Part shown: positions 2,967-24,670 of the stretch, in pieces | Position numbering within the stretch: the stretch's first letter is position 1 | How the letters are laid out: each line of letters begins with the position of its first letter | DNA from: Sulfurovum sp. TSL1 | GTDB lineage: Bacteria; Campylobacterota; Campylobacteria; Campylobacterales; Sulfurovaceae | DNA length: 64,000 nucleotides | NCBI RefSeq assembly: GCF_019972135.1 | Contig: NZ_BPFI01000001.1 | Span: forward strand, 1,595,106 to 1,659,105 | Direction: 5' to 3' | The notes under the pieces: model-generated | What the model was told of the DNA's origin: nothing | The model's database searches: none | What the model saw: only the letters and a program-made list of their open reading frames with translations | Made by a program: the position numbers and the translations under genes

Positions 2967-3029
2967 ATTTTATCCTTTATCCAAATCTTTTTTCTTTTTG
3001 CTCACTTCTAGTCCAACAGACTGATACAG

Positions 3030-3048
3030 GAAATCACGAAATGATTTC
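3030..3048. repeat. Short inverted repeat between pstB and phoU
   Basis: GAAATCA-N5-TGATTTC forms a 7-bp stem with a 5-nt loop in the 111-bp gap between pstB and phoU. There is no T-run on the minus strand, so it is more likely an mRNA processing or stability element than an intrinsic terminator. Confidence 0.35.
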
Positions 3049-3077
3049 TCGTAAAATTTTGCCTTTGGCACATAGAT

Positions 3078-3869: not shown

Positions 3870-3890
3870 GTTGTTTTCTGACCTTTTCTA

Positions 3891-4700: not shown

Positions 4701-4713
4701 AATGCTGTCCTTT

Positions 4714-5568: not shown

Positions 5569-5595
5569 GTATCGCCTTCGTAATTAATTGAAAGG

Positions 5596-5628
5596 ATTGT
5601 AATAAAAGTTGGTTACATTTTAGTTACA
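5596..5628 (-). promoter_or_regulatory. Pho-box promoter of pstCAB
   Basis: Minus-strand reading gives TGTAACT-N4-TGTAACC-N9-TACAAT. The two 7-mers (5622-5628 and 5611-5617) are exactly 11 bp apart and the -10 (5596-5601) follows after nine bases. The same layout recurs at the other Pho genes here and resembles the Campylobacter PhosR box as I recall it (GTTTC repeats 11 bp apart). Confidence 0.8.
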
Positions 5629-5734
5629 AATCAAATCTTTTTTATCATGAAGGTGTCAAGAAGTAGGGGGAGAAATGTGATTTACGAAGAAGCCCCCGGG
5701 TAGAGAGCTTGTAGTTGTGTTGCTGCTAAAAGTT

Positions 5735-6736
5735 TTATTTAATTTTTTTAGCTTCCCAGTATTTTCTGATCTCATCTTTGGTTGATGCAGGAAGCGGCAC
5801 ATATCCAAGATCTGTTGCTGCTTTATCCCCATGGGTATATGCCCAGTCGATAAATGCCGTCACTTGTTTGTTTGTTTCCATTTTTTCTTCCGGAAGCAGG
5901 ATAAATGTTGCTGCTACGATAGGGTACGAAGTTGCACCTGCAGGGTCACCGATCACTGCATAGAAATCATTCTCAGCTGTCCAGCTTGCATATTTAGCTG
6001 CATCCTGGAACGATTGTAGCGTTGGGTTGATATATTGACCTTCTTTGTTTTCGATCTGCGCTGCTGCCAATCCTAACTTCTCTTTATAGGAGTATTCAAT
6101 GTACCCGATAGAGTTTTTGATCTGCTGGATATTTGCCGATACACCTGAGTTTGATTTACCTGCAACTAATTTTGCTGCTTTCCATGTAGGTTTTTTGCTT
6201 ACTTTGATGTTTGCATCCAGTTTGTTCAAGAAGTAGGTAAAGTTAAATGTTGTACCTGATTTGTCAGCTCGTACGGCTACCGTGATAGGCTCATGCGGTA
6301 ATTTTAAACCGGCATTTTGTGCCATGATCGCCTGATCATCCCAGTGCGTAATGCTTCCACTGAAGATACCTGCGATCGCGGCACGGCTCAGTTTAAGTTC
6401 TCCGTCTTTTACCCCATCGATGTTATACGCCAGAACCACTGAACCTACGACAGTAGGGAACATATAAAGCTTGTCTTTTTTAAGTGCTTTTGGCTTAAGC
6501 GGTTTGTCTGAACCGGCAAAGTCAACCATTCTTTTGGTAATGGATTTGACACCGTCACCAGAACCTGTTGGTGTGTAGTTCACCTGGTTTTTTGTTGCAG
6601 CATAATACTCTGCTGTCCAAGCTTTATATACAGGTCCAGGGAATGATGCCCCTCTCCCTTTAAGTTCATCAGCATTGACTGCTGAGAGTGCTACTGAAGC
6701 TGCCACTGCCGCCGTAAGAATTTTTTTCAATGTCAT
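5735..6736 (-). CDS. pstS: Periplasmic phosphate-binding protein PstS
   Basis: Captures phosphate in the periplasm and delivers it to PstCAB. The 333-aa protein has a signal peptide (KK near the N-terminus, hydrophobic core, cleavage after VNA-DE at about 22-23). Ligand-binding motifs of the family are visible: GASFPGPVYKAW, TGSGDGVKSI, FAGSDKPL, and RADKSGTTFNFTYFL, which contacts phosphate. It has its own Pho promoter and is separated from pstC by 166 bp, allowing PstS to be made in excess of the permease. Confidence 0.97.
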   Translation of the reverse strand: MTLKKILTAAVAASVALSAVNADELKGRGASFPGPVYKAWTAEYYAATKNQVNYTPTGSGDGVKSITKRMVDFAGSDKPLKPKALKKDKLYMFPTVVGSVVLAYNIDGVKDGELKLSRAAIAGIFSGSITHWDDQAIMAQNAGLKLPHEPITVAVRADKSGTTFNFTYFLNKLDANIKVSKKPTWKAAKLVAGKSNSGVSANIQQIKNSIGYIEYSYKEKLGLAAAQIENKEGQYINPTLQSFQDAAKYASWTAENDFYAVIGDPAGATSYPIVAATFILLPEEKMETNKQVTAFIDWAYTHGDKAATDLGYVPLPASTKDEIRKYWEAKKIK

Positions 6737-9840: not shown

Positions 9841-10206
9841 ATGAACTTTATAAAACAACACTACGAACTACTGTGCGCTTCAGTTATATTCGTTGCCATA
9901 CTAAGTACACACTATCCCTTTTATAAAGCTATCATTTTGATGCTGGAGTTTGTTGTGATCATAGAGGTGGTAAAAATGATCTCGGAGTTTATAGACAAGA
10001 AAAGATTACGACTGAGGTATGTGATCGATGTATTTATTATCTTTTTGACACGGGATGTGATCATATTGACAACACACCCAGACAAAGACCGCCAAGAGAT
10101 ACTCTTTTTACTTTTAGTGATCTTTGTCTTTTTTCTCTTTAGGATTCTAGCCGTACTCTTTTCGCCTGCACTGTCCAGAAAGAAAAAAGCACAGAAGCCG
10201 TTTTAG
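9841..10206 (+). CDS. psiE: PsiE-like phosphate-starvation-inducible membrane protein
   Basis: A 121-aa inner-membrane protein with four hydrophobic segments (about 9-27, 29-48, 60-78, 88-108) and the PsiE-family pattern LRYVIDVFIIFLTRDVI between segments 2 and 3. PsiE is induced by phosphate starvation in enterobacteria; its biochemical role is unknown. Here it is the only plus-strand gene in the locus and has a Pho promoter ending just before its ATG. Its 3' end overlaps the convergent regulator gene by 4 bp. Assignment rests on the topology, the short motif and the context. Confidence 0.75.
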   Translation: MNFIKQHYELLCASVIFVAILSTHYPFYKAIILMLEFVVIIEVVKMISEFIDKKRLRLRYVIDVFIIFLTRDVIILTTHPDKDRQEILFLLLVIFVFFLFRILAVLFSPALSRKKKAQKPF

Positions 10207-10886
10207 AGCAATTTATATCCAACACCCCATACCGGAGCAAAATACTCTTTCACGCCTTCAGGGTCGATCTTCTTTTTAAGTCTGTTCATCGCAACATTGA
10301 TGGTTTTATCATGAAAGTTTGTACTGTCATCACCCCAGACTTCATCACGCAAATAATCTCTGTCTAATGGCTGATGCGGATTTTTGACAAAGGTATGAAG
10401 AAGTTTAAATTCCAGGTTGGTCAACTCTATGCGTCTCTCCTCTATGAAAAGTTCACGTTTTTGCAGATCCAATATAAGGTCTCTGTATTTTACCTTATCG
10501 CTGGATGTCGCACCACTGCGTTTCAATAGTGCGGCTATTCTCAAAAGAAGTTCTTTACTGCTGAAAGGCTTTGTCATATAGTCATCACCTCCGGAGTGGA
10601 AACCTTCTTCCAGGTCACTCTCTTTATCTCTTGCTGTCAGGAACAACACGGGAATATCATATCCCAAGTCCCGTATTTTTGAAACAAATTCACTTCCCTC
10701 TACACCAGGAAGATTTCTGTCAACGATCATCAGGGAAGGATTTTCTTCTTCCAGGAACTGTTCTACATTTTCTGTAGAGACGAACCCTGTAACAGTGTAT
10801 CCTTCTTTTTCAAGATGATATTCAAGAAGTTCTAAAATATCCGGTTCGTCTTCAATAACGATGATTTCTATATCTCTATTTTGCAT
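10203..10886 (-). CDS. OmpR/PhoB-family response regulator (paralogue 3)
   Basis: A 227-aa regulator almost colinear with that at 1580-2266 (shared wording such as STENVEQFLEEE, VDRNLPG, RDKES and PVWGVGYK). Receiver residues: VIEDEPD, phospho-Asp in MIVDRNLPG and Lys in TKPFSSKEL. The winged helix carries DDSTNFHDKTINVAMNRL in the recognition-helix region. Unlike its twin it has a two-box Pho promoter, so it may amplify the response after the constitutive copy starts it. Its end overlaps psiE by 4 bp in the opposite direction. Confidence 0.87.
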   Translation of the reverse strand: MQNRDIEIIVIEDEPDILELLEYHLEKEGYTVTGFVSTENVEQFLEEENPSLMIVDRNLPGVEGSEFVSKIRDLGYDIPVLFLTARDKESDLEEGFHSGGDDYMTKPFSSKELLLRIAALLKRSGATSSDKVKYRDLILDLQKRELFIEERRIELTNLEFKLLHTFVKNPHQPLDRDYLRDEVWGDDSTNFHDKTINVAMNRLKKKIDPEGVKEYFAPVWGVGYKLL

Positions 10887-11037: not shown

Positions 11038-12579
11038 CTAGCTCGCTACACCTTTAAGTATGAAGAAAATAATGGCAGATAGTACTGCTGCGGCCGGTAC
11101 AGTGATCACCCATGCCGCTACGATCTTTTTCACCATACCGCGTTTTACGTAATTCTCACGCAATGAACGCTTCAAGCTTTTGACTTTTTTCTTTTGGACT
11201 TTAGCCGCTTCGATTAATTCGACTTGTCTCTTATAATCTCCTGCAGCTTTCAATTCTGCAAGTTCTGACTTAAGGGCATTGTGCTTTTCCATTTCGATAT
11301 GAAGTCTCTCCTGCTTCACACTCATATCTTTGCTGTCAAGCCACTCTCTAAGAAAACCGACCCCAAAGATCGCACCTACAGCAATGTGTGTAGAAGAGAC
11401 CGGTAAACCAAGCTGAGAAGCAATAACCACTGTGATCGCCGCAGCCATCATAATGGAAAATGCCCTCATCTGATCAAGCTCAGTGATCTCAGACCCTACC
11501 GTTCTTATGAGTCTTGGTCCAAACAGTGCAAGACCTACAGAGATACCCACACCACCGATAACCATGACCCATAAAGGGATCGCTGCTTTTTCAGAAACAG
11601 CAAGTGTGGTCAATGCATCATTTACCGCTGCCAAAGGGCCAACCGCATTGGCAACGTCATTTGCGCCATGTGCAAAGCTCAGAAGTGCCGCTGCAAAAAT
11701 AAGAGGAATCGTAAAAAGCATATTGACCGCTTCTCTAGAGTTATCCAGACCAACGACTTTTTTTGCTACTCTAGGCTTAACGATCAAGAAAGTGATCACT
11801 CCTCCGATCACACCTAAGATCAATGCCACAGAAAAAGATGGCTTCTTGGTTTGAGGCAAGAAACTCAATATCTCAGTGATCGTTCCCCAGATATGTTTAA
11901 AGCCTTTAAGCGTCAAATAGGTGATAAATGCTGCTGACATGATAGCCACGAGTGCAGGTATGACTCTTTTAGCCGCCGTTAACCTATCTGTTTTATAGAT
12001 CACCTGTGATTTGATGACATAAAGGAATGTCGCTGAAATCACTCCACCCAGTACAGGTGAGATCACCCATGAAGCAGCGATCTTACCCATGGTTCCCCAA
12101 GAAACGATAGCAAAACCACCTGCAGCGATACCGCCGCCAAGGACACCGCCCACGATTGAGTGTGTGGTTGAAACCGGTGCTTTAAGCCATGTTGCAAGAT
12201 TCAGCCATAGTGCTGCGGCAAGCAGTGCAGCAGACATACCATAGACAAATAGCATAGGGTCATTACCAAAAGCAGCTGGAGAAATGATCCCTTTTTTAAT
12301 GGTTCCTACCACATCACCGCCAGCGATGAGTGCACCGCCCGCTTCAAAAATAGATGCGATAAGTACAGCACCACCTATGGTCAATGCGCCTGAACCAACG
12401 GCTGGGCCTACGTTATTGGCAACATCATTCGCACCGATATTCATCGCCATATAGGCACCAAATACCGCTGCTAGTACTAAAAATCCTCCGTGTGTTGCCT
12501 GTCCCATAACGCTGTTTGCATAAAACGCTACGGCTACAGCAAAACCTGCACCCAGTATTATTTTTAATGTATTGTTCAT
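11038..12579 (-). CDS. pit: PiT-family inorganic phosphate transporter
   Basis: A 513-aa inner-membrane transporter of the PiT (Pfam PHO4) family, which moves phosphate with H+, Na+ or as a metal-phosphate complex. Both inverted family signatures are present: GANDVANNVGPAVGSG near residue 50 and GANDVANAVGPLAA near residue 305; about ten to twelve membrane segments surround them. A charged helical insert (about 420-475, rich in K and E) lies before the last membrane segment. The gene stands alone between a candidate terminator and a promoter whose Pho boxes point the opposite way. PiT carriers are usually low-affinity, so this may be the transporter used when phosphate is plentiful. Confidence 0.93.
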   Translation of the reverse strand: MNNTLKIILGAGFAVAVAFYANSVMGQATHGGFLVLAAVFGAYMAMNIGANDVANNVGPAVGSGALTIGGAVLIASIFEAGGALIAGGDVVGTIKKGIISPAAFGNDPMLFVYGMSAALLAAALWLNLATWLKAPVSTTHSIVGGVLGGGIAAGGFAIVSWGTMGKIAASWVISPVLGGVISATFLYVIKSQVIYKTDRLTAAKRVIPALVAIMSAAFITYLTLKGFKHIWGTITEILSFLPQTKKPSFSVALILGVIGGVITFLIVKPRVAKKVVGLDNSREAVNMLFTIPLIFAAALLSFAHGANDVANAVGPLAAVNDALTTLAVSEKAAIPLWVMVIGGVGISVGLALFGPRLIRTVGSEITELDQMRAFSIMMAAAITVVIASQLGLPVSSTHIAVGAIFGVGFLREWLDSKDMSVKQERLHIEMEKHNALKSELAELKAAGDYKRQVELIEAAKVQKKKVKSLKRSLRENYVKRGMVKKIVAAWVITVPAAAVLSAIIFFILKGVAS

Positions 12580-12741: not shown

Positions 12742-13926
12742 CTAGAATGTAATAATCGCGTCTAACTGCACACGCTCATAGTCTGCATCTGCAGGATCGC
12801 CAACTTTGCTTCCATAGAGTGTATTGAAGAAGAAAGTACCGGCAAGATATGTGTTTTCGCCAAATTTATATTTTGTTCTGATAGCATGACCTTTGGCAGC
12901 TGTACCACCACCGAAGTTATCTGAGTCAGAGTGCGCACCAAGCACCGCATCTTCTTGGATATCTGTATAAGAGTATTTTACTTGCCAATCACCAACTTCT
13001 TTAGCCTTACCGAGTTGAAATGCCAAATCGTATCCAAAGTTATTGTCATCTGCAGCTGTGTTATATGCTACACCAGCAGCGATTGAAAATGGTTTACCAA
13101 GTACATTTTTAAACTCGAGTTCTCCAAATCCTTCTACGATATGATAATCATTAGCAAACACACCATCTACCGTTAAAGTGTTACCCATACCTGTACCTTT
13201 ATTGTCACTATAAAGTGATGTATTACCTTTGACACCATCATAATAGTAAATACCCGCACCCACATTCAGTGTTGAGCTTTCTAACTTTGTTTTTTGTACA
13301 TATTGTGCTAAAAAGAGATTTACATCATCCTTTGCAATAATATTTTCCGCATAACTTGGTTGGTTAATACCTGCAGTGATGATCTTTGTATCATCTTGGT
13401 ACTGATAGTTAATACCATCTAATGAAAGATCGTTATCCCAAACAAGTTGTGATTTAATAGGTCTATACATCATGTATGGTGATCTACCAACTTTCCAAGT
13501 AGAGTTACCATATGTATAATCAAGAGCTAAAGCATTGAATCTAAGCGACTGGAAAAAGTAATCTGACAGAGCTTCAGTATCCTTATTCGCCTCAACAAAA
13601 GTTTGGTTACCTGAAGTCGGGTTACCAAAACCACTTCTCATACCAACTTCAAATTGAAGATGATCTGTGATATCAATATGTGCGCCTAGTCTTAAACGAT
13701 ATCGACCAAGATACTTATTACTTTCAGTACCGTCATAATAGTCAGTCTCTTTACTCTCATAACGTAGTCTTAAGTCACCTTTGAAATGAATTCTATCGAA
13801 GATACTTTTTTCAGTTGTTGCAGTTGTGTCTTTCGCTTCTTCTATTCGTTCAATTGGGTGACTAATGTCCGATTCAGCCATTGCTACTGTCGCTAGTGCG
13901 GCCATGGATAGTACAATTTTTTTCAT
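12742..13926 (-). CDS. Outer-membrane porin-like beta-barrel under Pho control
   Basis: A 394-aa protein with a signal peptide (cleavage after VAMA, about residue 17), a short acidic linker and then about 330 residues of alternating amphipathic strands typical of a 16-18-strand barrel (FKGDLRLRYES, GRYRLRLGAHIDI, ending in the outer-membrane signature VQLDAIITF with terminal Phe). The three-box Pho promoter upstream and the phosphate locus suggest a channel that raises outer-membrane permeability to phosphate, functionally like OprP/PhoE. Sequence homology to OprP is not evident by eye. A terminator follows, so it is monocistronic. Confidence 0.8.
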   Translation of the reverse strand: MKKIVLSMAALATVAMAESDISHPIERIEEAKDTTATTEKSIFDRIHFKGDLRLRYESKETDYYDGTESNKYLGRYRLRLGAHIDITDHLQFEVGMRSGFGNPTSGNQTFVEANKDTEALSDYFFQSLRFNALALDYTYGNSTWKVGRSPYMMYRPIKSQLVWDNDLSLDGINYQYQDDTKIITAGINQPSYAENIIAKDDVNLFLAQYVQKTKLESSTLNVGAGIYYYDGVKGNTSLYSDNKGTGMGNTLTVDGVFANDYHIVEGFGELEFKNVLGKPFSIAAGVAYNTAADDNNFGYDLAFQLGKAKEVGDWQVKYSYTDIQEDAVLGAHSDSDNFGGGTAAKGHAIRTKYKFGENTYLAGTFFFNTLYGSKVGDPADADYERVQLDAIITF

Positions 13927-13957: not shown

Positions 13958-14001
13958 AGTATAAAACAAATTGGTTACAAATTGATTACCATATGGTTAC
14001 A
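13958..14001 (-). promoter_or_regulatory. Three-box Pho promoter of the porin gene
   Basis: Minus strand: TGTAACC, GGTAATC and TGTAACC at 13995-14001, 13984-13990 and 13973-13979, each exactly 11 bp apart, then nine bases and TATACT (13958-13963). The box-to--10 segment is nearly identical to that of pstS. Confidence 0.83.
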
Positions 14002-14014
14002 AGTATCAGACCCT

Positions 14015-17000
14015 TTAGAATTTAGCGGAAATTTTCAGGTCTAGTGTCGGTCCTGTTTTGTAATATCGTGTAATACCATCACCCTCTTTCCATACAGTTT
14101 CATCATCCAGTAAATTTCCTGCTTTCACCTTCAACTCTAACGGATATCCATAATCAAACTTCTCGATCCATACAAGGTCCAAAAGTGTTGGCGGTGTTTC
14201 ATACTGATCTTCTAGTCCCAATCCAAATGCGATAATACCTACTTTTCGAATACGTTCAGACATATAGTTTGCATTAAGAGATACTGAGCGATCATCATCC
14301 TCGTATCCCACTGTTAAGTTTGCAACATATGGTGAAAGCCCCTGCAGCGTTCTGTGGTTGGTTGTAAACTGTGTTTGCTGTTCTTCACTCAAAGACACAT
14401 CCGACTCATTGTAGGAAAAGTTCCCCGATACATAATAGTTTTGCCACATTTGTCCAAGAAAATCCAGGTTCTTTCTACCATCTATCTCTATGCCATAAAG
14501 TGTTGCAGTGTCAGTATTGGCAAACGAATAGATAGGTAATGATGTAGAATACTGTAGTACATCTTCAATGGGCTTATCCATATATTTGTAAAACAATCCC
14601 AACTTGACAAACTCTGCCTCAGAGAAGAAGTAGCTATATTTAAGATCAAGATTATACATAATAGTATTGACCAAATCAGGATTACCGATAATCGTTGCTG
14701 GTTCAAATGGATGATTATATACACCACTAAGCTCTCTTAGGTCAGGCATAATATACGTTTTTGATGCCGCTATATCAAAAATATTTTTGTCATCATATGT
14801 ATATTTCACGCTGAACGAAGGGAAGAACTCTTTGACTTCCGTACTGCTCGATGTGGTTGTGATAGTGTTTCTTAATGACATATCCGGATTGGAGGTGTCT
14901 TTCACATATTCATCTATTGTTTGGGTTAGATTTACATATCGTAGACCGAAAACTGCTTCAATTTTCTCCGTAGGCCGCAACATCAAAGAAACATATGGAC
15001 TCTTTTCATCAACATATCCGTCGAATGCATCTGCAGGCTTGTTAAATGAGGTCAAAAGAAATGGACGGTAATCGTATGGATAATCAGGTATGACATACAA
15101 CCCATAAATCGTATCAATACCTTGCGTCATCATTTGATCCTCTATCAGTGATGTAGGGCTTGTAGACAATTTAAATCTTCTTTGTCGTGAAACTCTCTCT
15201 TTGGAAGAGACAGTGATACCATATTCAATAGATTCATCCGGATTAAATATTTCTATTTGGTGTTTATTTTTTAGATATAAAGACTTCAGTACATCATCAG
15301 ACTCTACTCTTGTAGCTGCATTGTTAGCTGAATTTTTGTTGTAAAGATATGCAAAATCCGCTGTATTATAGTAGATATATTCGTAATTGTTAGGCTGATA
15401 AAAATTTGCCGTGCTGTGTTGTAGACCAAAACTAAATGTGGAAGCAGAATTAAATACTCTATAATCGATCTCTCCACTTAACTGGTCAGCATTCATTTCT
15501 CTCTCTTCCCAGTCAAGATTATAGATGGTTAAATGCTCATCATTTGAACCTAAAATACCATCAGTGATCCTGGTTTTTTTACTTGCATCCTTTGTATACA
15601 GCTTCGTATACTTAAGTTTGAATACATCCAAAAAGTTATAACCGATATTCAACATACCTCCATGGGATATAGTCATTTCTCTTTGATCAATCGTACCTGA
15701 CTGCGTAGGGGTATCATACTGATTCCCATACATGTCGTAGTCGTAATTAAAGTATTGTTCTTGTCTAAATCTATTCTCTTGCGTATATCCATAGGTTGCA
15801 AAGACAGACAATTCATGATCATCATTCACTGTAAAATTTTTACCAGCCTCGATAGATCCACTTACTCCTGGTAACACAGTGGTCTTGTTGACGGCATATA
15901 TACGATTGATAAACATTCTGGTAAAGTCAGAAAGTTGTTCCTTTGTAAAATAATCTGTTGTCAATAGTGGTGTAGTTTCACCGATATGCATCTCTGTCGC
16001 ATCAAGAATAGGCTGTGGAATATCACGGTACGAAAAGTCATATCCGGTCCAGTCTGTTGCAGATCCGACATAGTCTATCTGTGCCGTACCGGTATCTCTG
16101 TTAAATTTTGTTCCTAAAGAGATCTTGATGAAATCCTCATCAACATTTCCTCTGGTTCTGATATCTATATATCCACCACCAAAATTGCTTGGGATGTCAG
16201 CGGATGCACTTTTTTGTACTTTCATCGAACCGATAACCGAAGTAGGGAAAATGTCAAGAGGCACAGATCGCTTCATAGGGTCCGGGGAAGGCAATGGCAT
16301 AGAGTTCATCTCTACATTAGAGTATCTCTCCCCAAGTCCACGAACATAGATATTTTTCCCATCGACCAAAGTAACACCGGTGACTCTTTTCAGTGCAGCA
16401 GCTGCATCAGAGTCTCCTTTTTTTGATATCTCTTGAGAACCCAGAATGTTCGCTACTGCATTGCTATTTTTCTCTTCTGCGATAACATCTGCGATACTAC
16501 CTTCGATCTTCGGAGCAAGGACAACAAACTCTTCAAGCTCCATACTTGCCGGAGTCAATTTGACTGTTCTAGAAGTCGTTGCATCTTTTTTAACCACGAT
16601 CCCTCCGATCGTCTGTGCACTGTAAGCCGAGTGTACTACAGAGATACTTAACGTTTTTCCGGATGGTACTTTTGCAGAGAAACGACCATTCCCATCCGTT
16701 CTTACATCTACCGACGTACCTCGTACAAAGACTCTAGCACCTGAAACAGGGGTATTTCCTTCTGAAGAGAGTACCTGCCCTCTCAGTATCCCCTCTCCGG
16801 TGACTTTTTCCTCTTTTCTTTCCACTGATGCAGCCACCGCCACGGGGGTATCTATGTCTATACTGTCTGTCCCGCTTTTAGAGAGTGTCGCAATAACTTC
16901 TGTGTCTCTTCCCTCTTTGATAGAAACAGGTTTTTTAAAATACCCCAGGTTCTCGCCTGCAGCATTTTTACCAAAGATCTCTATCTGGTGTTTTCCTGCA

Positions 17001-17191
17001 ACGAGAGCTATCTTTACGGCACCATCTTTATCTGTATGAAAAACCTTTTTGCCATCGACTTTTATCTCATTCTTCGCAAGGGGGCTCCCCTCACTGAAAA
17101 GCAACACTGAAAGTGTACCCTCTTTTAACTCACTGGCCATGACAACCAGTGGCAGTGTCATTAAAAGCAATAATTGCGCCAACTTCTTCAT
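14015..17191 (-). CDS. TonB-dependent outer-membrane receptor with carboxypeptidase-like N-domain
   Basis: A 1058-aa receptor that should import a substrate across the outer membrane using TonB energy. In order: signal peptide (cleavage after VMA, about 19); a small beta domain (about 22-110); a carboxypeptidase-regulatory-like domain (about 133-215, ILRGQVLSSEGNTPVSGARV); a candidate TonB box around MELEEFVVLAP (about 216-226); the plug (about 235-350, with LKRVTGVTLVDGKNIYVRGLGERYS in outline); and a 22-strand barrel ending in TLDLKISAKF with terminal Phe. It is the last gene of the operon that starts with DUF3450 and encodes its own ExbB-ExbD-TonB, so the energiser is probably dedicated. 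Pho control points to a phosphorus-containing ligand; identity is unknown. Confidence 0.88.
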   Translation of the reverse strand: MKKLAQLLLLMTLPLVVMASELKEGTLSVLLFSEGSPLAKNEIKVDGKKVFHTDKDGAVKIALVAGKHQIEIFGKNAAGENLGYFKKPVSIKEGRDTEVIATLSKSGTDSIDIDTPVAVAASVERKEEKVTGEGILRGQVLSSEGNTPVSGARVFVRGTSVDVRTDGNGRFSAKVPSGKTLSISVVHSAYSAQTIGGIVVKKDATTSRTVKLTPASMELEEFVVLAPKIEGSIADVIAEEKNSNAVANILGSQEISKKGDSDAAAALKRVTGVTLVDGKNIYVRGLGERYSNVEMNSMPLPSPDPMKRSVPLDIFPTSVIGSMKVQKSASADIPSNFGGGYIDIRTRGNVDEDFIKISLGTKFNRDTGTAQIDYVGSATDWTGYDFSYRDIPQPILDATEMHIGETTPLLTTDYFTKEQLSDFTRMFINRIYAVNKTTVLPGVSGSIEAGKNFTVNDDHELSVFATYGYTQENRFRQEQYFNYDYDMYGNQYDTPTQSGTIDQREMTISHGGMLNIGYNFLDVFKLKYTKLYTKDASKKTRITDGILGSNDEHLTIYNLDWEEREMNADQLSGEIDYRVFNSASTFSFGLQHSTANFYQPNNYEYIYYNTADFAYLYNKNSANNAATRVESDDVLKSLYLKNKHQIEIFNPDESIEYGITVSSKERVSRQRRFKLSTSPTSLIEDQMMTQGIDTIYGLYVIPDYPYDYRPFLLTSFNKPADAFDGYVDEKSPYVSLMLRPTEKIEAVFGLRYVNLTQTIDEYVKDTSNPDMSLRNTITTTSSSTEVKEFFPSFSVKYTYDDKNIFDIAASKTYIMPDLRELSGVYNHPFEPATIIGNPDLVNTIMYNLDLKYSYFFSEAEFVKLGLFYKYMDKPIEDVLQYSTSLPIYSFANTDTATLYGIEIDGRKNLDFLGQMWQNYYVSGNFSYNESDVSLSEEQQTQFTTNHRTLQGLSPYVANLTVGYEDDDRSVSLNANYMSERIRKVGIIAFGLGLEDQYETPPTLLDLVWIEKFDYGYPLELKVKAGNLLDDETVWKEGDGITRYYKTGPTLDLKISAKF

Positions 17192-18475
17192 TTATATACA
17201 CTCCAGACTGTTACTTCTACATTTTTCAATATTCTTACGGATCACCGTCGCTTTAGAGAAGAGCTCATCATCTTCAATCTTTTTAAGATGTTCTTCTGCA
17301 CTCTCATAATCTTTGACCATATAGTATGCATACGCCAATGCATAACGCATATTGTCATTTTTCAAAAGACCGTATCTATCAAGCGCGTCTTTGACTCCTA
17401 TGATCTTCTCAAACTCACCTTTACCGATATAGATCGCTACTTTCTGTTTGGTCTTTTCTTCTTTATCTGTCATCATTGAATTGAGATACAGCGCATGTGC
17501 AAGTTCACCGTTTCTTCTGTACATCTCTGCAGCTTCTTTCAGATATTTCGCATCATAAAAAGAACCCTTTTCAAAAAGATCCGCAGTAACATGAGGCATC
17601 TCTTTTTGGTTATAGTAATGCCCCAGTAAAATGTGTACTTTTGCCGAAGACGGGGACTTCAGCTTCGCCTCTTCAAGTACCTTGATCGCCTCTTCTGATT
17701 CACCCCCGCTTTGAAGCATCTGTGCCAAGGAGATATACTCCTGTGCATTTGCAGGCATCTTCTGCATATAGGCTTTTGCCGCAGCGATGGCAGCCTGATA
17801 GAGCTTTAATTCTGCAAAATAATAAAACTTCTGTTTCAGCAATGTTGCATCTTTAGGGAAAATCTTTGCCCCTCTGCTCAGTGCATCGATCGCAGCACCT
17901 TTTTGATCCGCTTTCCAGTAACACTCTGCTCTAAGTGTGAATAGAGATGCACTGGCACGCCCTTTTTCTCCTGCTGCATCGAGTGCATGTACGGCATTGA
18001 GATACTGCTCTGCTTTATAATATGCCTGGGAAAGATAGATGTTGATCTCCTCTATCTGATCTTTTCTTACTTTCTCCGGATCAAACACCGGCTTTTTTAC
18101 TATAGGCTCTTCTACTTTTTTCTTTTCAGAAAAAACACTGAAAAGATACTCTCTTTTAGGCTTCTCTTCCACCGGTGGCTCATAACTCTTTTGCTTGGTT
18201 GCAATGATCGCTTTTTTAAATGCATCAATAGATGCCTGATAATTCTCATTTTTCAGAAAGATCAATCCTCTCATATTATGATATTTATCCCATTCGATCT
18301 TCGTATGGGAATCTTTAGCTTGCTGAAGTTCTTCAAGTGCTTTATCGTACTTCCCGTCATAGTACATAATCGTAGCGATCTCCATATGATTGATCGTTTG
18401 TTCTTCAGCTTCATTCGCCTGCAGTGAATATGTCAAGAAAAGGACAAATGATAGTGTAATAATTTTTTTCAACAT
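17192..18475 (-). CDS. Periplasmic TPR protein of the TonB operon
   Basis: A 427-aa protein with an N-terminal signal peptide (cleaved after SLQA, about 20) and tandem tetratricopeptide repeats throughout (for example YDGKYDKALEELQQAK, NENYQASIDAFKKAI, YYKAEQYLNAVHAL). It ends with three cysteines in its last 20 residues. TPR proteins sit at this position in TonB2-type operons (DUF3450-TtpC-ExbB-ExbD-TonB-TPR) and may scaffold the complex in the periplasm. Its stop abuts the receptor start (0-bp gap). Confidence 0.8.
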   Translation of the reverse strand: MLKKIITLSFVLFLTYSLQANEAEEQTINHMEIATIMYYDGKYDKALEELQQAKDSHTKIEWDKYHNMRGLIFLKNENYQASIDAFKKAIIATKQKSYEPPVEEKPKREYLFSVFSEKKKVEEPIVKKPVFDPEKVRKDQIEEINIYLSQAYYKAEQYLNAVHALDAAGEKGRASASLFTLRAECYWKADQKGAAIDALSRGAKIFPKDATLLKQKFYYFAELKLYQAAIAAAKAYMQKMPANAQEYISLAQMLQSGGESEEAIKVLEEAKLKSPSSAKVHILLGHYYNQKEMPHVTADLFEKGSFYDAKYLKEAAEMYRRNGELAHALYLNSMMTDKEEKTKQKVAIYIGKGEFEKIIGVKDALDRYGLLKNDNMRYALAYAYYMVKDYESAEEHLKKIEDDELFSKATVIRKNIEKCRSNSLECI

Positions 18476-18484
18476 GACTTCACC

Positions 18485-19123
18485 TTAATTAAAATCGAAG
18501 CGTACTTTTTGCTTCGCCCATACTTTGACCGGGTTGCCTTTATATTTTGCCGGAGCAAAACGCCAGCTTCTGACACCTCTCAGTGCCGCCTGATCAAACA
18601 CACCTGCCGGACTTGAAGCGATCACTTTTGCCAGCTCTACACTTCCATCCTTACCGATAAGCAAGTTCACGACCACATATCCTTTGATACGTTTTTTAGC
18701 TGCTGCAGGAGGGTACTCCAATGGACTACGTGAAACCACCCTTGGTTTACTGTCAACAGTACCTTCACTCATTGCTGCATCTGCTGCCATATCGCCCAAA
18801 AGACTTCTACCGTCACCGATGATATCCCCTGTAGCGAATTCAGGAATGTTCATCGCGATCCCGCCAAGCATTGCTCCAAGGTCCGGCATCGGTGCTTTTG
18901 GCTGTGCTTTAGGTTTTGGTTTTGGCTTCGGTTTTGGTTTTTCCACTTTCGGCGGCTGTTTTGCCATCTTCATATAACGCATAGGGTCTTTGACTTTTTT
19001 CTCTTTCTTCTCGACCTTTGCATTAAATGATACAACCAGTACCATCATCAAAAAAGCACCCATTCCCATCGCCAATAAGGCAAAGGTTTTGGCACGATCT
19101 CTATTAAACTTTGTAGTGTCCAT
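18485..19123 (-). CDS. tonB: TonB energy transducer
   Basis: A 212-aa TonB family protein linking ExbB-ExbD to the receptor. It has an N-terminal membrane anchor (about 14-34), a Pro-Lys periplasmic spacer (about 56-78, KPKPKPKPKPKAQ) and a C-terminal TonB domain (about 128-212) with SPLEYPPAAAKKRIKGYVVV and the conserved RSWRFAPAKYKGNPV. It lies 6 bp after exbD and 9 bp before the TPR gene. Confidence 0.93.
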   Translation of the reverse strand: MDTTKFNRDRAKTFALLAMGMGAFLMMVLVVSFNAKVEKKEKKVKDPMRYMKMAKQPPKVEKPKPKPKPKPKAQPKAPMPDLGAMLGGIAMNIPEFATGDIIGDGRSLLGDMAADAAMSEGTVDSKPRVVSRSPLEYPPAAAKKRIKGYVVVNLLIGKDGSVELAKVIASSPAGVFDQAALRGVRSWRFAPAKYKGNPVKVWAKQKVRFDFN

Positions 19124-19129
19124 AATAGA

Positions 19130-19534
19130 TTATCCCATCTCTTTTGATGTGGATACAGCTACATCCTTTGCCCCTGACATACGACACTCATCCACTACAT
19201 CGATCAATGTCTCTACAGGGATCGTATCATCAGAGATGACCAAAACTGACTTCTCAGAAGCAGTACGCAACAGGTCTCTGAGTTTACTCTGTATCGCCCA
19301 TAGTTGTACCGGCTGGTTATCGATATACACTTGCGACGTATTATCGATATAGACACGTACCACTTTTGCATCTGACTTACTGGCACTTGCGGCAGACGGA
19401 CGCTCAAGGTCCAGCTTCATATCTTTTACAAACGTAGTGGTTACCATAAAAAAGATCAATAGGATAAAAACCATATCGATCAATGGGGATACATCTACAT
19501 TGTCTACTTCTTGTTTCTTTGGTCTAATTCTCAT
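19130..19534 (-). CDS. exbD: ExbD-type biopolymer transport protein
   Basis: A 134-aa proton-channel subunit: cytoplasmic tail, one membrane helix (about 16-36) carrying the essential Asp in VSPLIDMVFILLIFF, and a periplasmic domain. It overlaps exbB by 4 bp at its start, implying coupled translation and fixed stoichiometry. Confidence 0.94.
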   Translation of the reverse strand: MRIRPKKQEVDNVDVSPLIDMVFILLIFFMVTTTFVKDMKLDLERPSAASASKSDAKVVRVYIDNTSQVYIDNQPVQLWAIQSKLRDLLRTASEKSVLVISDDTIPVETLIDVVDECRMSGAKDVAVSTSKEMG

Positions 19535-20145
19535 TCTGCATCCTTCGTGGATATAATATCTGTGATCTGTTCAAATTCAAGTTCATAACGTTCTGCTTTT
19601 CTGTCAAGTACACGTCCTATGATCAGCCCGGGAACGGCAACCACCAACCCGAGTTCGGTAGTAAAAAGCGCTTTGGAGATACCTCCTGAGATACTGGCTC
19701 CCTGTGCAAACATAGAACTGCTTTGCAGTGCATCGAATGTCTCGATCATCCCCATAACGGTTCCAAGCAGACCTACCAGTGGTGCAAGTACAACGATCGT
19801 CTTGATCATGATCCTGTAACTGTTTACATCACTATAATACGGGAGCAAGACACCGTTGATGTGTTTTCTTACGTTTGCCCCGATCGCTTTGGCCTCTTGT
19901 GCAGCTTGGAGGGCATCCGCAACAGCATAGTCAAGCATCCCTCGCATCGCTTGTGCTTCACCTCTTGTTTCATGCTTAGTGATCAAACGGCGGACATTCC
20001 CTTTGGTTCCCCTCTTCAGGATAAAATAACGATATCCCAAACCATACCAGAGAAAGAAGTTCAGTACAAAAAGTACCCACATGACCACTCCTCCGGTATT
20101 CATAAGATCGACAAATCTGCCGATTAACTCAAATGGCGAAAGCAT
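19531..20145 (-). CDS. exbB: ExbB/TolQ-type proton channel protein
   Basis: A 204-aa MotA/TolQ/ExbB protein with three membrane segments (about 16-38, 110-133, 155-178) and the family stretch PLVGLLGTVMGMIETFDAL. With ExbD it converts the proton gradient into TonB movement. It follows the larger TtpC-type protein by 1 bp. Confidence 0.93.
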   Translation of the reverse strand: MLSPFELIGRFVDLMNTGGVVMWVLFVLNFFLWYGLGYRYFILKRGTKGNVRRLITKHETRGEAQAMRGMLDYAVADALQAAQEAKAIGANVRKHINGVLLPYYSDVNSYRIMIKTIVVLAPLVGLLGTVMGMIETFDALQSSSMFAQGASISGGISKALFTTELGLVVAVPGLIIGRVLDRKAERYELEFEQITDIISTKDAE

Positions 20146-20146
20146 C

Positions 20147-21484
20147 TTAGCCTCTATACTTCTCGTAAAGATTTACGATATGTAAAGCACTTTGCTCCAT
20201 AGAGTCTTTAATGCTTTGTGCCCAACCGGAAAGCAGGTTTCCGATCAACAGAAGCGGGATCGCTACAATAAGACCTTGCATCGTTGTCACCAGTGCTGCA
20301 GAGATACCGCCTGAAAGCAATTTCGGATCACCTGTACCAAACTCTGTGATCACTTCAAATGTCTCGATCATTCCTGTGACCGTACCCAAGAGCCCCATCA
20401 ACGGTGCAACCGCAGCGATGACCAGTACAAAACTGCCAAATCTGTCGATCTGTGTACTTTCATTCAGGATATTTTCCATAATGACATCCTCAACGTGTGC
20501 TCTCTCTTTTTTGATATTTCTCAACGTCGCTTTGATGACTCTTGCCGTTGAGCCTTTATATCCTTTAAGCTTCTCAAGAGAAACTGTGCTGCCCTCACCG
20601 GATTCCAATGTATCTACCACGATCTGAGTGATCTCATTCACATTTGTTTTTGCCCCCATCAGGTTGATCACTCTCAGTCCCAAAAGGACCAGACCAAAGA
20701 GGCCAAGTGCAAAGATGATATAGCCGATGATACCACCGTCTTCCATCGTATCCATAAAGGTTTTCTCCGTCACATAATCCACCTCTTTATCAAGGTTCTC
20801 ATAGACAAAGATATCGATCGTTTCTGTCTTCTCTTTGGCAAACATTGCTTTGGCATCATCAGATGAACCCACGGCATTCCATAGTTTATAGTTACCGTCT
20901 CCTGCAGGGGAAAGTGCTCCGGCTGCTTCCTTGGCGATACCATATGCAGCCACATTTCCTACTTTTACGATATCACCTTCTGCTTTCTTCCCATCCGGAA
21001 GATAGAACGCACCTTTTTCATTTCTCAAAGAAGAGAGTTCGCTGTACAATTTCATAGAACTGCCGAATGCCTGCTGGATCTTCTCTACATCATTGGTTTT
21101 ATTATCATCTGAAACTTTCACACCATAGGGTTCAAGTGCCAAACGTGCCTGATTGACCACATTACCTGTAAGACCGCCCGTATCCTCTTTCTCAGCCAAC
21201 ATCTTGGAGAGTTTTTCCAGTTTTTCACTGCTTACTTTTGCCTTTGCAGATACTTCAAGAAGTTTTGCCTGAAGTGCTTCTACCTTCTCTTTAGATGCAT
21301 GAAGTTCATTTGCCTGTTGTACTGTATCTGTTTCAAGTCTCTTTTCAAGTTCTGCTTTTTGTGCTTTAAGGAATGCATACTCTTTTTGATACGCTCTTTC
21401 AAGTTCCCCTGCCTGGACAGTTGCCGAAAGCGAAACAAGTGTTGCGATCGCGAAAAATAGTTTAGTGATTGATAATGCCTTCAT
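20147..21484 (-). CDS. ttpC: TtpC-like MotA/TolQ/ExbB protein with long periplasmic N-domain
   Basis: A 445-aa protein: signal-like N-terminus, a periplasmic coiled coil (about 25-100), a globular segment, one membrane helix (about 250-272) and a C-terminal TolQ/ExbB domain with PLMGLLGTVTGMIETFEVITEF. This matches TtpC, the extra ExbB-like component needed by TonB2 systems of vibrios. It overlaps the DUF3450 gene by one base. Confidence 0.85.
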   Translation of the reverse strand: MKALSITKLFFAIATLVSLSATVQAGELERAYQKEYAFLKAQKAELEKRLETDTVQQANELHASKEKVEALQAKLLEVSAKAKVSSEKLEKLSKMLAEKEDTGGLTGNVVNQARLALEPYGVKVSDDNKTNDVEKIQQAFGSSMKLYSELSSLRNEKGAFYLPDGKKAEGDIVKVGNVAAYGIAKEAAGALSPAGDGNYKLWNAVGSSDDAKAMFAKEKTETIDIFVYENLDKEVDYVTEKTFMDTMEDGGIIGYIIFALGLFGLVLLGLRVINLMGAKTNVNEITQIVVDTLESGEGSTVSLEKLKGYKGSTARVIKATLRNIKKERAHVEDVIMENILNESTQIDRFGSFVLVIAAVAPLMGLLGTVTGMIETFEVITEFGTGDPKLLSGGISAALVTTMQGLIVAIPLLLIGNLLSGWAQSIKDSMEQSALHIVNLYEKYRG

Positions 21485-22251
21485 TAGTTAGCTCCTCTAA
21501 GTAGTAATGCATTGGGCAGAGTAAAGTATCCTGTACGGATCTGTTTTTGCACGGCATCAAAAAGATCAATGATCTGATCACGCTCAGTGCTGTCTTTTGC
21601 TACTACATAGCTGTACTTCTTGCCCTCTTGTTTCACATACCCGACTCTGTCATCCGGTGTTGCGAAGAACATCATCACTGAACCCACTTTGGCTATCTTT
21701 GCTATGGTGTCTTTTCCATCCAGCGTGATCTCCTGCTTGAACTGTCCGATCTCTTTGGTCAAACGCAATGCATCATCATAGCTTGCCCATGTCAGTGCAA
21801 GCGCTTTCTCTTGTGAGATGTTCCCGTTTTTAAGATCCTCTTTGATCTGATGAAGTGCTGCGACTCTCTCTTCCCTTCTGAAAGGGATACCGGCTTGGAT
21901 CTCTTTTTCAAGTGCATCAAGTGCATTGGTCACAACAGGCTTAAGGTCCACTGTGGCGCTTCCCATCACTTCAAGCTTTTTTTGCGTTTTTTCAATGTTC
22001 TGTTGTGTCAGCTTCAACGCAGTTTCTTGTCTGTTGATCTGTGCTTCATTGTCGGAAGTTTGAAGTGCATAAGACTTCATTTGAGCTCTGTACGCCTCTT
22101 TGTTATCATCAATTTGTGTATAGAGCGACTCTACCTGCGATCTGAGTTCCATGATCGATTTGATCATGCTGTCATCATTTGCTGCATGAAGCATCGTACC
22201 TGAAACTGATAGCGCTGCTGATATGGAGATCAATCTTCTGAATGTGACCAT
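21484..22251 (-). CDS. DUF3450-family periplasmic coiled-coil protein
   Basis: About 255 aa; first gene of the TonB operon. Signal peptide (cleavage after LHAA region, about residue 24), then a long coiled coil (about 30-105, MRSQVESLYTQIDDNKEAY in outline) and a C-terminal domain with AKIAKVGSVMMFF. DUF3450 proteins regularly precede ttpC-exbB-exbD-tonB; the role is unknown, probably periplasmic assembly. An in-frame ATG at 22311 lies upstream of the predicted -10, so I chose ATG 22251, which has AAGGA seven bases before it and begins the signal peptide. Confidence 0.82.
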   Translation of the reverse strand: MVTFRRLISISAALSVSGTMLHAANDDSMIKSIMELRSQVESLYTQIDDNKEAYRAQMKSYALQTSDNEAQINRQETALKLTQQNIEKTQKKLEVMGSATVDLKPVVTNALDALEKEIQAGIPFRREERVAALHQIKEDLKNGNISQEKALALTWASYDDALRLTKEIGQFKQEITLDGKDTIAKIAKVGSVMMFFATPDDRVGYVKQEGKKYSYVVAKDSTERDQIIDLFDAVQKQIRTGYFTLPNALLLRGAN

Positions 22252-22301
22252 TGTCTTTCCTTGTGAAAAATTAAAAATCTGTGTTGATTTTAGTGTGCGC
22301 A

Positions 22302-22334
22302 ATATTTCCATAAATTAATAACAAAGTGGAAACA
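22302..22334 (-). promoter_or_regulatory. Probable Pho-box promoter of the TonB operon
   Basis: Minus strand: TGTTTCC-N4-TGTTATT-N9-AAATAT. Boxes at 22328-22334 and 22317-22323, 11 bp apart. The -10 (22302-22307) keeps only A at position 2 and T at position 6, so this is weaker than the other sites, though it lies in the right place. Confidence 0.6.
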
Positions 22335-22361
22335 TTGTATGTAATGGATTTGTAATGGAAT

Positions 22362-22381
22362 AGACAGGCCGAAACCTGTCT
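22362..22381 (-). terminator. Hairpin after the beta-helix lipoprotein gene
   Basis: AGACAGG-N6-CCTGTCT forms a 7-bp GC-rich stem 13 bp past the lipoprotein stop. It lacks a T-run on the minus strand, so termination efficiency is uncertain. Confidence 0.4.
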
Positions 22382-22393
22382 GATAGGGGTACC

Positions 22394-24562
22394 TTAGAGG
22401 TAATTTATTGTATTGCTTGTATTCGCATCAAAGATTGCTCTAATCTCATCAGCTCCATCTGTAGTAGGATCCGTTTGATCTTCGAAATCACCTGATACTG
22501 TATTAATAGTAACGTTGCCAAAATCAATATTAGTAAGCTTAGGTATTTTCGCGGAATAAATGGCTGCACCGTCTATACTGTTATAATTGATCGTACCATT
22601 GTAGAATTTACCTCCAACTCCTGCTTTTTTGAAGTAGATACCCCCTTCAAACTCACCGACACCGGCAGCATAACTATCATGATTAATCGTAAACCCATCA
22701 AGTGTCAATACTGTGTCTGTACCTGACATTTCGATACCTGCATAACCCATAGTAGCATTGATGACAAGGTTTTTAACCGTACCCTGGTACATACTGTCAA
22801 CATCCAGGTGGTCATCTGTACAGTGGGAGATCGTTACATTGGTCATGTTCACTGTACCGCCCCAGATCTCTATACCATCATCATTGGAATAGTCCACTGT
22901 AATATCCTCAACCACTGTACCGGAACCTACACCTACCATTGAAAGACCATTGGTTTCTTGACTCAGTCCTGTTTCTGTTGCTGAGTTGAGGATCTTCACA
23001 TGTCTCAAAATACCAGAACTGTCATCCGATACTCCCGTCCCTGCCGTATAACTTCCGTTTACCGTCACTTCGTATGTAAGTGGTGTACTGGACATATTCG
23101 CATTACCGATAAGTGTTAAACCACCCCAAAGTCCTTCTTGTGCATTTGTTTTTGCTTTATCGGTAAATGTAATCGGTGCTGTTTCTGTACCAAGTGCATA
23201 TATTTTTGAATCTTTGTTGATTTGTAAATATGAGTTTGCATCATTACCACCAATAGTCGTACCATCCTGAATTCTTATAGATGCACCTGCTGCAGTATCT
23301 GCAAATTGGTCGATTACCCATGACTTGCCTCTTGTAAGTACATTACATCCTGCAATTTTTCCAGTAATTGTCGTAGAAGGAATCACGCAGGCATCATCGT
23401 TGTTACCACTGCCTGTCGTCGTAAAAATATTTTTGATTTCATCTGCAGAGTCTGTTGCCGCATCTGTTTTGTTCACAAATGTATTACCTATATCTGTGTA
23501 GATACCCACGTTGTTGAAATCAATATTTGAAAGCTTGGCATCTTGTTGTGAATAAATTGCCCCTGCTGAAGCACTTCTATAAATGATCGTACCATTGTAG
23601 AATTTACCTCCAACTCCTGACTTCTTGAAGAAGATACCACCTTCTGCTGAATCAGGTATAGCAAACCCATCCACGGTGATAGTAAAGCCATCCACAGTTA
23701 AAACTGTGTCTGTACCTGACATTTCGATACCTGCATAACCCATAGTAGCATTGATGACAAGGTTTTTAACCGTACCCTGGTACATACTGTCAACATCCAG
23801 GTGGTCATCTGTACAGTGGGAGATCGTTACATTGGTCATGTTCACTGTACCGCCCCAGATCTCTATACCATCATCATTGGAATAGTCCACTGTAATATCC
23901 TCAACCACTGTACCGGAACCTACACCTACCATTGAAAGACCATTGGTTTCTTGACTCAGTCCTGTTTCTGTTGCTGAGTTGAGGATCTTCACATGTCTCA
24001 AAATACCAGAACTGTCATCCGATACTCCCGTCCCTGCCGTATAACTTCCGTTTACCGTCACTTCGTATGTAAGTGGTGTACTAGACATGTTCGCATTACC
24101 GATAAGTGTTACCCCACCCCATTTACCTACAGTTGTGTCAGTGCCACTCAATCCATCCACTGAGGAAAATATAATCGGTTTTTCAGCTGTACCATCTGCT
24201 ATGATCTTAGCGTTCTTATCAATGAGAAGATATGAGTCTGAATTTTTACCGGCGATGCGGGTTCCAGGCTCGATAGTAAGTGTAGCACCGTTCGTTACAG
24301 AAACATATCCGTCCAAGATCCATGCCTTATCAGCTGTCCATGTGGTGTCTGTTGTAATATTTCCTATTACTGTTTCTTGTGTTGATGGTGCTGGTGGTGT
24401 AGTAGTACCTGTAGTACCACCTGTAGTACCAGTAGTAAGAGTATCCCCAGTGATAGCCACCGTTGAATCACCATAATTAATCGATGTATCACCACATCCT
24501 GTCATAGCAGCAATAGCTGCGAGCGAAAGTGCCATTTTAGTCAAGTTAGTCAAGTTAGTCAT
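22394..24562 (-). CDS. Beta-helix surface lipoprotein with internal duplication
   Basis: About 722 aa. The N-terminus is a lipoprotein signal (ALSLAAIAAMTGC, lipidated Cys about 22), then a Thr/Gly linker and two large halves of right-handed beta-helix type with parallel-strand repeats (GTVVEDITVDYSNDDGIEIW, GTVNMTNVTISHC). Each half starts with a TWTADKAWILDG- or KSWVIDQFAD-like strand. Residues 161-287 and 492-618 are encoded by two identical 380-bp segments. The ATG at 24562 has AGGA eight bases upstream; longer starts are excluded because the -10 lies at 24605-24610. It carries the densest Pho array here and lies next to the TonB operon, so it may be a surface ligand-binding partner of the receptor. 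Substrate and function unknown. Confidence 0.82.
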   Translation of the reverse strand: MTNLTNLTKMALSLAAIAAMTGCGDTSINYGDSTVAITGDTLTTGTTGGTTGTTTPPAPSTQETVIGNITTDTTWTADKAWILDGYVSVTNGATLTIEPGTRIAGKNSDSYLLIDKNAKIIADGTAEKPIIFSSVDGLSGTDTTVGKWGGVTLIGNANMSSTPLTYEVTVNGSYTAGTGVSDDSSGILRHVKILNSATETGLSQETNGLSMVGVGSGTVVEDITVDYSNDDGIEIWGGTVNMTNVTISHCTDDHLDVDSMYQGTVKNLVINATMGYAGIEMSGTDTVLTVDGFTITVDGFAIPDSAEGGIFFKKSGVGGKFYNGTIIYRSASAGAIYSQQDAKLSNIDFNNVGIYTDIGNTFVNKTDAATDSADEIKNIFTTTGSGNNDDACVIPSTTITGKIAGCNVLTRGKSWVIDQFADTAAGASIRIQDGTTIGGNDANSYLQINKDSKIYALGTETAPITFTDKAKTNAQEGLWGGLTLIGNANMSSTPLTYEVTVNGSYTAGTGVSDDSSGILRHVKILNSATETGLSQETNGLSMVGVGSGTVVEDITVDYSNDDGIEIWGGTVNMTNVTISHCTDDHLDVDSMYQGTVKNLVINATMGYAGIEMSGTDTVLTLDGFTINHDSYAAGVGEFEGGIYFKKAGVGGKFYNGTINYNSIDGAAIYSAKIPKLTNIDFGNVTINTVSGDFEDQTDPTTDGADEIRAIFDANTSNTINYL
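22710..23089. repeat. Intragenic direct repeat, copy A (380 bp)
   Basis: Identical by eye over 380 bp to 23703-24082, offset 993 bp (331 codons), so the reading frame is kept. The match ends at a G/A difference at 23090 versus 24083. Confidence 0.9.
23703..24082. repeat. Intragenic direct repeat, copy B (380 bp)
   Basis: Second copy of the segment at 22710-23089, in the same orientation. Flanking sequence diverges clearly on both sides, while the core shows no silent differences. Confidence 0.9.
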
Positions 24563-24604
24563 TTCTGTCATCCTATTTCCACCGTATACGGTTTTGTTTG
24601 CAGA

Positions 24605-24670
24605 ATAGTGACGAAAAATGGAAACAGAGTGGAAACAGAGTGGTAACATTTATGTTATCAAATGGTTATC
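24605..24670 (-). promoter_or_regulatory. Five-box Pho promoter of the beta-helix lipoprotein
   Basis: Minus strand 7-mers GATAACC, GATAACA, TGTTACC, TGTTTCC and TGTTTCC begin at plus 24664, 24653, 24642, 24631 and 24620, every 11 bp without slip. Nine bases after the last is CACTAT (24605-24610), a near-match to TANNNT. This is the longest Pho array in the window. Confidence 0.83.

Follow-up and report, generated by a model that had tools for sequence, protein, structure and literature searches.

The 64,000-nucleotide stretch of the Sulfurovum sp. TSL1 genome analyzed here (contig NZ_BPFI01000001.1, positions 1,595,106 to 1,659,105 of the forward strand; hereafter the window) carries a gene for a beta-helix lipoprotein (BHL) of the Caulobacter ElpS type and, downstream of it, an operon encoding a TonB-dependent transporter (TBDT) together with a motor of the TonB2/TonB3 type. 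Strong sequence evidence indicates that this system is real, well conserved, and Pho-controlled. Both the partnership between BHL and TBDT, deduced from gene neighborhoods, and the Pho control of the two transcription units, deduced from upstream motifs, are well supported. The most likely reading, to which we give about an even chance, is that BHL captures a bulky phosphorus compound and TBDT imports it; the import direction, the substrate, and the phosphatase step are what we infer.

Gene Organization and Structural Features

Open reading frames and Pfam matches define seven genes at 14015-22311 on the minus strand, with the order DUF3450, TtpC, ExbB, ExbD, TonB, tetratricopeptide repeat (TPR) protein, and TBDT from 5' to 3'. 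Because neighboring genes overlap or stand 0-9 nt apart, a single transcript from DUF3450 to TBDT is plausible. The features are as follows, with Pho boxes scored by a position weight matrix (PWM).

24620..24648, minus strand: a pair of Pho boxes that overlap (three 11-bp repeats), ahead of the BHL gene; PWM 23.7 and 22.8, plus pattern match
22394..24571, minus strand: BHL, ElpS-type lipoprotein of 725 aa with two tandem beta-helix domains; open reading frame, lipobox, AlphaFold2 model, homologues
22317..22334, minus strand: Pho box before the DUF3450/Ton-TBDT operon; PWM 22.6
21484..22311, minus strand: TtpB-like DUF3450 protein; PF11932, 90.6 bits
20147..21484, minus strand: TtpC-like protein of 445 aa, with a long N-terminal extension and a C-terminal ExbB/TolQ channel domain; PF01618, residues 313-430
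19531..20145, minus strand: ExbB; PF01618
19130..19534, minus strand: ExbD; PF02472, 100 bits
18485..19123, minus strand: TonB; PF03544 (TonB_C), 80 bits, the highest-scoring of the genome's three TonB
17192..18475, minus strand: TtpD-like TPR protein; TPR families
14015..17191, minus strand: TBDT of 1058 aa; Pfam CarboxypepD_reg and Plug, Oar-like N-terminus

The energizer thus comprises TtpB-TtpC-ExbB-ExbD-TonB-TtpD in one operon and in the Vibrio order. A first-pass annotation made from the sequence alone had described this operon, its TonB2-like make-up, and a beta-helix lipoprotein next door, and all of these were recovered, each gene with its named domain and the lipoprotein with a lipobox and a beta-helix model. 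The further claim that the energizer is private to one receptor stays conjectural, with three TonB and six Plug matches in the whole genome. Two start codons are probably to be moved: judged by length in relatives, the DUF3450 protein would begin at ATG 22251 (255 aa), and judged by the ribosome-binding site and the signal peptide MTEMTNLTNLTKMALSLAAIAAMTGC, BHL would begin at ATG 24571 rather than 24649.

The TBDT consists of an N-terminal extension with a CarboxypepD_reg domain, followed by the Plug and a long barrel, which together with its own Ton genes corresponds to the Oar type. Its AlphaFold2 model (predicted local distance difference test, pLDDT, 78.1) displays the extension domains, the plug, and a long-stranded barrel. 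Foldseek searches with this model match TBDTs (E 8e-27), including the surface-lipoprotein complexes 8bmx, 9gbc, and SusCD, and the model resembles importers.

In the AlphaFold2 model of BHL, domain 1 forms a right-handed beta-helix (pLDDT 85.5, core >90), and its structural matches in the PDB are alginate epimerases (AlgG), tailspikes, polygalacturonases (GH28), and other beta-helices, with a best Z of 24.4 that concerns the fold only, at approximately 10% identity. A sequence search of the PDB with BHL found no relative. Family searches left SusD, nuclease, and phosphatase families all below threshold; BHL was accordingly rejected as a nuclease or phosphatase, and also as a SusD given its beta-helix model, while the Caulobacter pentapeptide beta-helix YjbI was set aside as unrelated. 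Six acidic residues (D233, D234, E237, D255, D256, and D259) are invariant in 53/53 sequences across phyla, stand one helical turn (21-22 residues) apart, and are accompanied by K or R at position 316 in all of the aligned sequences. This spacing and the basic residue resemble the Asp triad and the Lys found in GH28. No catalytic His is conserved among the 53 sequences at the position expected for GH28; binding, perhaps calcium-bridged and to a polyanion, is therefore as likely as catalysis.

The BHL gene (22394-24571) contains a near-identical internal repeat (300 nt at 95%, spacing 993), and in 36/46 comparisons the domains within one protein are closer to each other than to any other locus, a pattern suggestive of recurrent duplication or gene conversion. 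Such internal repetition may break draft assemblies at this gene.

Phosphate Control

The exact motif GTTTC-N6-GTTTC of Campylobacter jejuni PhosR has one match, a count equalled in 21/100 shuffles. Because this exact form alone is too strict, a Pho motif was learned afresh from 35 regions upstream of BHL and DUF3450 genes in other genomes, with the window left out. The learned motif is TGTTACCATTTTGTTACC, an 11-bp direct repeat. Its nine best PWM sites in the window lie before BHL (23.7 and 22.8), before DUF3450 (22.6), in the BHL-ybaB gap on the plus strand (22.5), and before PiT (21.0), PstS (19.3), the porin (18.3), a response regulator (17.2), and PstC (15.4), whereas the best scores reached anywhere in the window by five column-permuted control models ranged from 12.5 to 18.1. 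Searched in pattern form, the 2.35-Mb genome shows the motif 22 times, and half of these matches (11) fall inside the 20-kb phosphate island (binomial p ~1e-17), compared with 15 matches of the reversed pattern across the whole genome. Among out-of-sample genera, 42/96 upstream regions score >=15, as against 2/324 random windows. An origin of the boxes by chance was rejected on the basis of the permuted models, the random windows, and the island enrichment. The boxes that had been claimed for both units in the first-pass annotation were recovered in this way. Both transcripts share their boxes with the pst, pit, and porin genes, and the regulator that reads them would be of the PhoB type.

Conservation of the Pair

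The comparison within Campylobacterota covered 150 relatives, whose relatedness means that p-values overstate independence. TBDT and DUF3450 occur together in 30 genomes, TBDT only in 3, and DUF3450 only in 3, these last three genomes being members of a different family. In most loci whose contig continues, BHL is located directly upstream of the operon; in several genomes seemingly devoid of BHL, the contig ends right at the BHL position, which is to be expected because the gene is repetitive. The gene order of the block BHL-TtpB..TBDT-porin-PiT-regulator-Pst is kept in many relatives. Additionally, PhoX is present in 18/21 TBDT-positive but only 8/34 TBDT-negative genomes of the genus (p 7e-6, uncorrected for phylogeny) and lies within ~6 kb of the TBDT gene in two genomes (G028 and G029), a co-occurrence that fits phosphoester use. 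In two Sulfurimonadaceae loci from the wider search described below (L111 and L121), BHL and TBDT stand directly side by side without Ton genes.

Two side observations were made among these relatives. Close to the block in G029, a PhoX gene is grouped with genes for a metallophosphoesterase and a glycosyltransferase (PlcP-Agt-like; L236:5142-9036), with Pho boxes of 17-18. Three loci (L034, L035, and L062) carry another DUF3450-Ttp system of a different campylobacterotal family, with no window-type TBDT or BHL found in the fetched stretch.

The BHL alignment, run against 85,000 species genomes, yielded 77 loci, some of which are contigs of metagenome-assembled genomes with doubtful binning, as may be the case for two from Desulfobacterota (L106 and L146). 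In 42 of the 48 loci longer than 12 kb a TBDT is nearby, and Ttp genes are likewise nearby in 42/48; the number of tandem BHL genes per TBDT ranges from one to three. A locus titled Candidatus Bathyarchaeota (L093) is a mis-binned contig, clearly from Sulfurovum, whose copy of the operon has Ton and TBDT genes 77-98% identical.

The pairing extends over several phyla with changing company. In Flavobacteriaceae, a BHL homologue was found in 94/100 sampled genomes and adjoins a TBDT in 17/20 fetched loci, 7 of these 17 with a response regulator beside; Pfam matches at flavobacterial loci further include a regulator with a histidine kinase (L187), PHO4 permeases (L189 and L198), and a phosphate-selective porin (L199), and some paralogues stand alone (L203-L205). 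In Gammaproteobacteria, BHL and TBDT are paired at 15/15 fetched loci, of which five have Ttp genes close by and four a response regulator: the order in Alteromonas macleodii is phoB-phoR-pstS-oxygenase-BHL-TBDT-DUF3450-TtpC-ExbB-ExbD-TonB, in Pseudoalteromonas the genes from DUF3450 to TPR are followed by BHL and TBDT, and in one locus of Alteromonadaceae (L168) the pair is directly adjacent without Ton genes. In Sphingomonas and Indioceanicola, BHL-TBDT is followed by genes of the type II secretion system (T2SS). Profiles of the window families match the proteins of these four genera strongly; for Sphingomonas and Indioceanicola, the BHL profile scores 204 and 388 bits against lipoproteins at the elpS position, and the TBDT profile scores 389 and 427 bits against the receptors.

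Because the pairing persists across phyla while the other neighbors change, the conserved core, as judged from gene neighborhoods, is the BHL-TBDT pair and not the energizer, with the Ton motor (in Campylobacterota and some Gammaproteobacteria) or T2SS genes as lineage-specific company. The BHL family thus spans Flavobacteriaceae, numerous members of Gammaproteobacteria and Campylobacterota, and some Alphaproteobacteria, and only seldom does a BHL gene lack a neighboring TBDT gene. These results agree with the earlier proposal of a lipoprotein-receptor partnership. Its proponent would have counted it as refuted had homologues never occurred near Pho genes; they in fact adjoin phoB, pst, and pit genes as well as those for phosphate porins. 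Pho control and the TonB2-like make-up stand, too. That the pair is the core and the energizer optional could not be seen from the one sequence, nor could the published precedents of the pair.

Proposed Function and Alternative Explanations

In the favored explanation, low inorganic phosphate (Pi) would lead a PhoB-type regulator to switch on two transcripts. The first would provide BHL, with a fold known from the model and a cell-surface anchorage predicted from ElpS, and the second its partner TBDT with the six-component motor. BHL might capture or trim a bulky, probably polyanionic phosphorus compound along its invariant acidic ladder, candidates being a phosphorylated polysaccharide, nucleic acid, polyphosphate, or the like, and hand it to TBDT, through which the proton-motive force would pull it into the periplasm, where a phosphatase such as PhoX could free Pi for Pst and PiT. 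Several points weigh against this proposal. No phosphatase or nuclease is found inside the Pho-boxed block, and the PhoX gene of the window genome (L234:2041-3933) lacks a Pho box. BHL does not belong to SusD, and the substrate is arrived at by inference. In Caulobacter, the receptor CC0171 was reported to be constitutive, unlike elpS, and a shift to poor medium brought no detected change in intracellular phosphate (PMC2996285). Oar of Myxococcus xanthus, which shares the N-terminal architecture of TBDT and likewise has Ton genes of its own, is needed for the secretion of a protein (PMC6434023), so that transport might also run outward.

Export is the main rival: TBDT and motor may move or display BHL (or PhoX) across the outer membrane as Oar does for the protease PopC, BHL being the cargo that mobilizes phosphorus outside. 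This is unlikely in our estimate, even though the CarboxypepD_reg and Plug domains are shared with Oar, a single TBDT serves up to three tandem BHL genes, and ElpS gets to the cell surface by an unexplained route that does not depend on T2SS (PMC2996285). TBDTs are as a rule importers, which the window model resembles; the alpha- and gammaproteobacterial partner TBDTs checked have no CarboxypepD_reg match; and ElpS is still produced in a cc0171 deletion, its location being unreported (PMC2996285). The broader form of this idea, that under phosphate starvation a private TonB2-type motor powers the passage of ElpS-type lipoproteins (or of a phosphatase) across the outer membrane or their placement on it, appears rather improbable. 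If true, it would explain how ElpS reaches the surface without T2SS, and TonB-driven protein display would be a widespread phosphate response.

A co-regulation without cooperation, in which BHL is a polymer-degrading or phosphatase-stimulating surface factor and TBDT imports an unrelated low-Pi nutrient, is distinctly unlikely. It would accommodate the increase in extracellular alkaline phosphatase activity on ElpS overproduction (PMC2996285), the resemblance of the BHL fold to GH28, AlgG, and tailspike enzymes, and the lone flavobacterial paralogues, but not readily the adjacency of BHL and TBDT across phyla, even where other neighbors differ. Least probable, and in our view very unlikely, is the import of iron or another metal chelate, co-regulated with phosphate because the two are linked. 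Many TBDTs carry metals, and the Vibrio TonB2 system serves iron siderophores; however, TonB3 of Vibrio is not iron-regulated and is inactive in iron transport (PMC6957404), synteny with phosphate genes holds in several phyla, and no Fur box is present in the whole window at <=3 mismatches to the E. coli-type consensus, the form used in place of a campylobacterotal Fur motif.

Neighboring Genes of the Phosphate Island

The BHL and TBDT genes are surrounded by genes for Porin_5, PiT, three OmpR-type regulators, PsiE, an acyltransferase-GNAT protein, and PstSCAB-PhoU, including the following.

12742..13926, minus strand: porin (Porin_5, PF16930), a separate unit; Pho boxes 13962-14001, PWM 18.3, 13.9, and 13.0
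11038..12579, minus strand: PiT phosphate permease (PF01384, 363 bits); Pho box 12638-12655, PWM 21.0
10203..10886, minus strand: OmpR/PhoB-type response regulator (Pfam); Pho box 10907-10924, PWM 17.2
2301..6736, minus strand: PstS-PstC-PstA-PstB-PhoU (Pfam); Pho boxes 6800-6828 and 5611-5628, PWM 19.3 and 15.4

Three OmpR-type response regulators (1580-2266, 8983-9705, and 10203-10886) thus lie in one island, and in the examined stretch none of them has a neighboring histidine kinase gene. The acyltransferase and GNAT protein at 6837-8552 is similar to the ornithine lipid synthase OlsF and probably serves phosphorus-free lipid remodeling; OlsF-like genes recur beside BHL at loci L099 and L101-L104. 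Divergent from the BHL gene and beside ybaB, a gene with a ribosome-binding site (24882-25007, plus strand) encodes a 41-aa protein, MKISKILQKAVKEEGKHSLTCKTIVKLKHSKEFSYLVDKNR, and is preceded by its own Pho box (24804-24821, plus strand, PWM 22.5). Homologues occur in at least 14 relatives; of the 14 that were scanned, 8 have a coding-strand box ~75-83 nt ahead of the gene. From sequence, it looks like an undescribed Pho-regulated small protein.

Comparison with Known Systems

Among the closest counterparts is the Caulobacter pair ElpS (CC0170)-CC0171, which, like the window, combines a lipoprotein with a TBDT. ElpS is a surface lipoprotein made under phosphate starvation, and its release depends on T2SS (PMC2996285); for the window, induction by phosphate starvation is predicted from the strong Pho boxes. 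The window BHL has a lipobox and a predicted surface location, and it is linked to the ElpS family indirectly, through profile matches to the lipoproteins at the elpS position in Sphingomonas and Indioceanicola; the window TBDT is tied to the CC0171 kind by its profile matches at the same two T2SS-flanked loci. Both elpS-cc0171 and its relatives sit before T2SS genes (PMC2996285), exactly as the alphaproteobacterial homologues do. The Caulobacter pair has T2SS genes beside it and no Ton genes, whereas the window block has a TonB2-type motor and no T2SS genes, with six genes between BHL and TBDT, unlike the adjacent pairs. A 2024 study placed various TonB receptors in the Caulobacter PhoB regulon (PMC11208175), and a phosphate fitness paper on D. 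alaskensis holds no TonB data.

In Flavobacterium johnsoniae, low-Pi-induced pectin-lyase-fold lipoproteins with 31-36% identity to ElpS lie beside TBDTs, one pair within the phoBR operon, and the family member FI is the most abundant exoprotein under phosphate starvation (18.7%). PUSIV (Fjoh_0545 TBDT, 0546 FII lipoprotein, phoBR) and PUSIII, whose TBDTs carry pf13715 and pf07715, are strongly induced by low Pi (PMC8115612). The window pair similarly has a Pho-boxed regulator 3 kb away, but the PUSIV kind is distant in sequence (its Salinimicrobium representative, L156, is ~30% identical), and no Ton motor genes are listed in the PUSIV cluster. SusCD, XusAB, and BtuBG of Bacteroidota also join a TBDT to a surface lipoprotein, BHL having an unrelated fold.

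The motor has its counterpart in the six-gene Vibrio systems TtpB-TtpC-ExbB-ExbD-TonB-TtpD, with the same components in the same order, a kind of system in which transport requires all six proteins. TonB2 is under Fur/iron control, whereas the window operon is marked by Pho boxes, ends in a TBDT gene, and is accompanied by a beta-helix lipoprotein. V. vulnificus TonB3 also includes a receptor gene, which comes first, and its TtpB3 and TtpD3 are inactive in iron transport (PMC6957404). An Alteromonas locus (L230) has the same receptor-first order behind phoBR. By analogy, V. vulnificus TonB3 may be a phosphate system of the window kind. Oar shares the CarboxypepD_reg extension and own Ton genes; in the portion of its description available, neither a beta-helix lipoprotein nor phosphate control is described (PMC6434023).

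Neither the breadth of the pairing nor its union with a Pho-boxed motor of the TonB2/TonB3 type was found described. The ElpS-type pair probably represents a little-studied route to phosphorus held in molecules that ordinary pores cannot admit, and the Sulfurovum and Sulfurimonas operons, which offer pair and motor as one Pho-controlled package, make cargo and direction directly testable. Known, in sum, though poorly understood, is the ElpS-type pair; apparently new is that a Pho-boxed motor of the TonB2/TonB3 type joins it.

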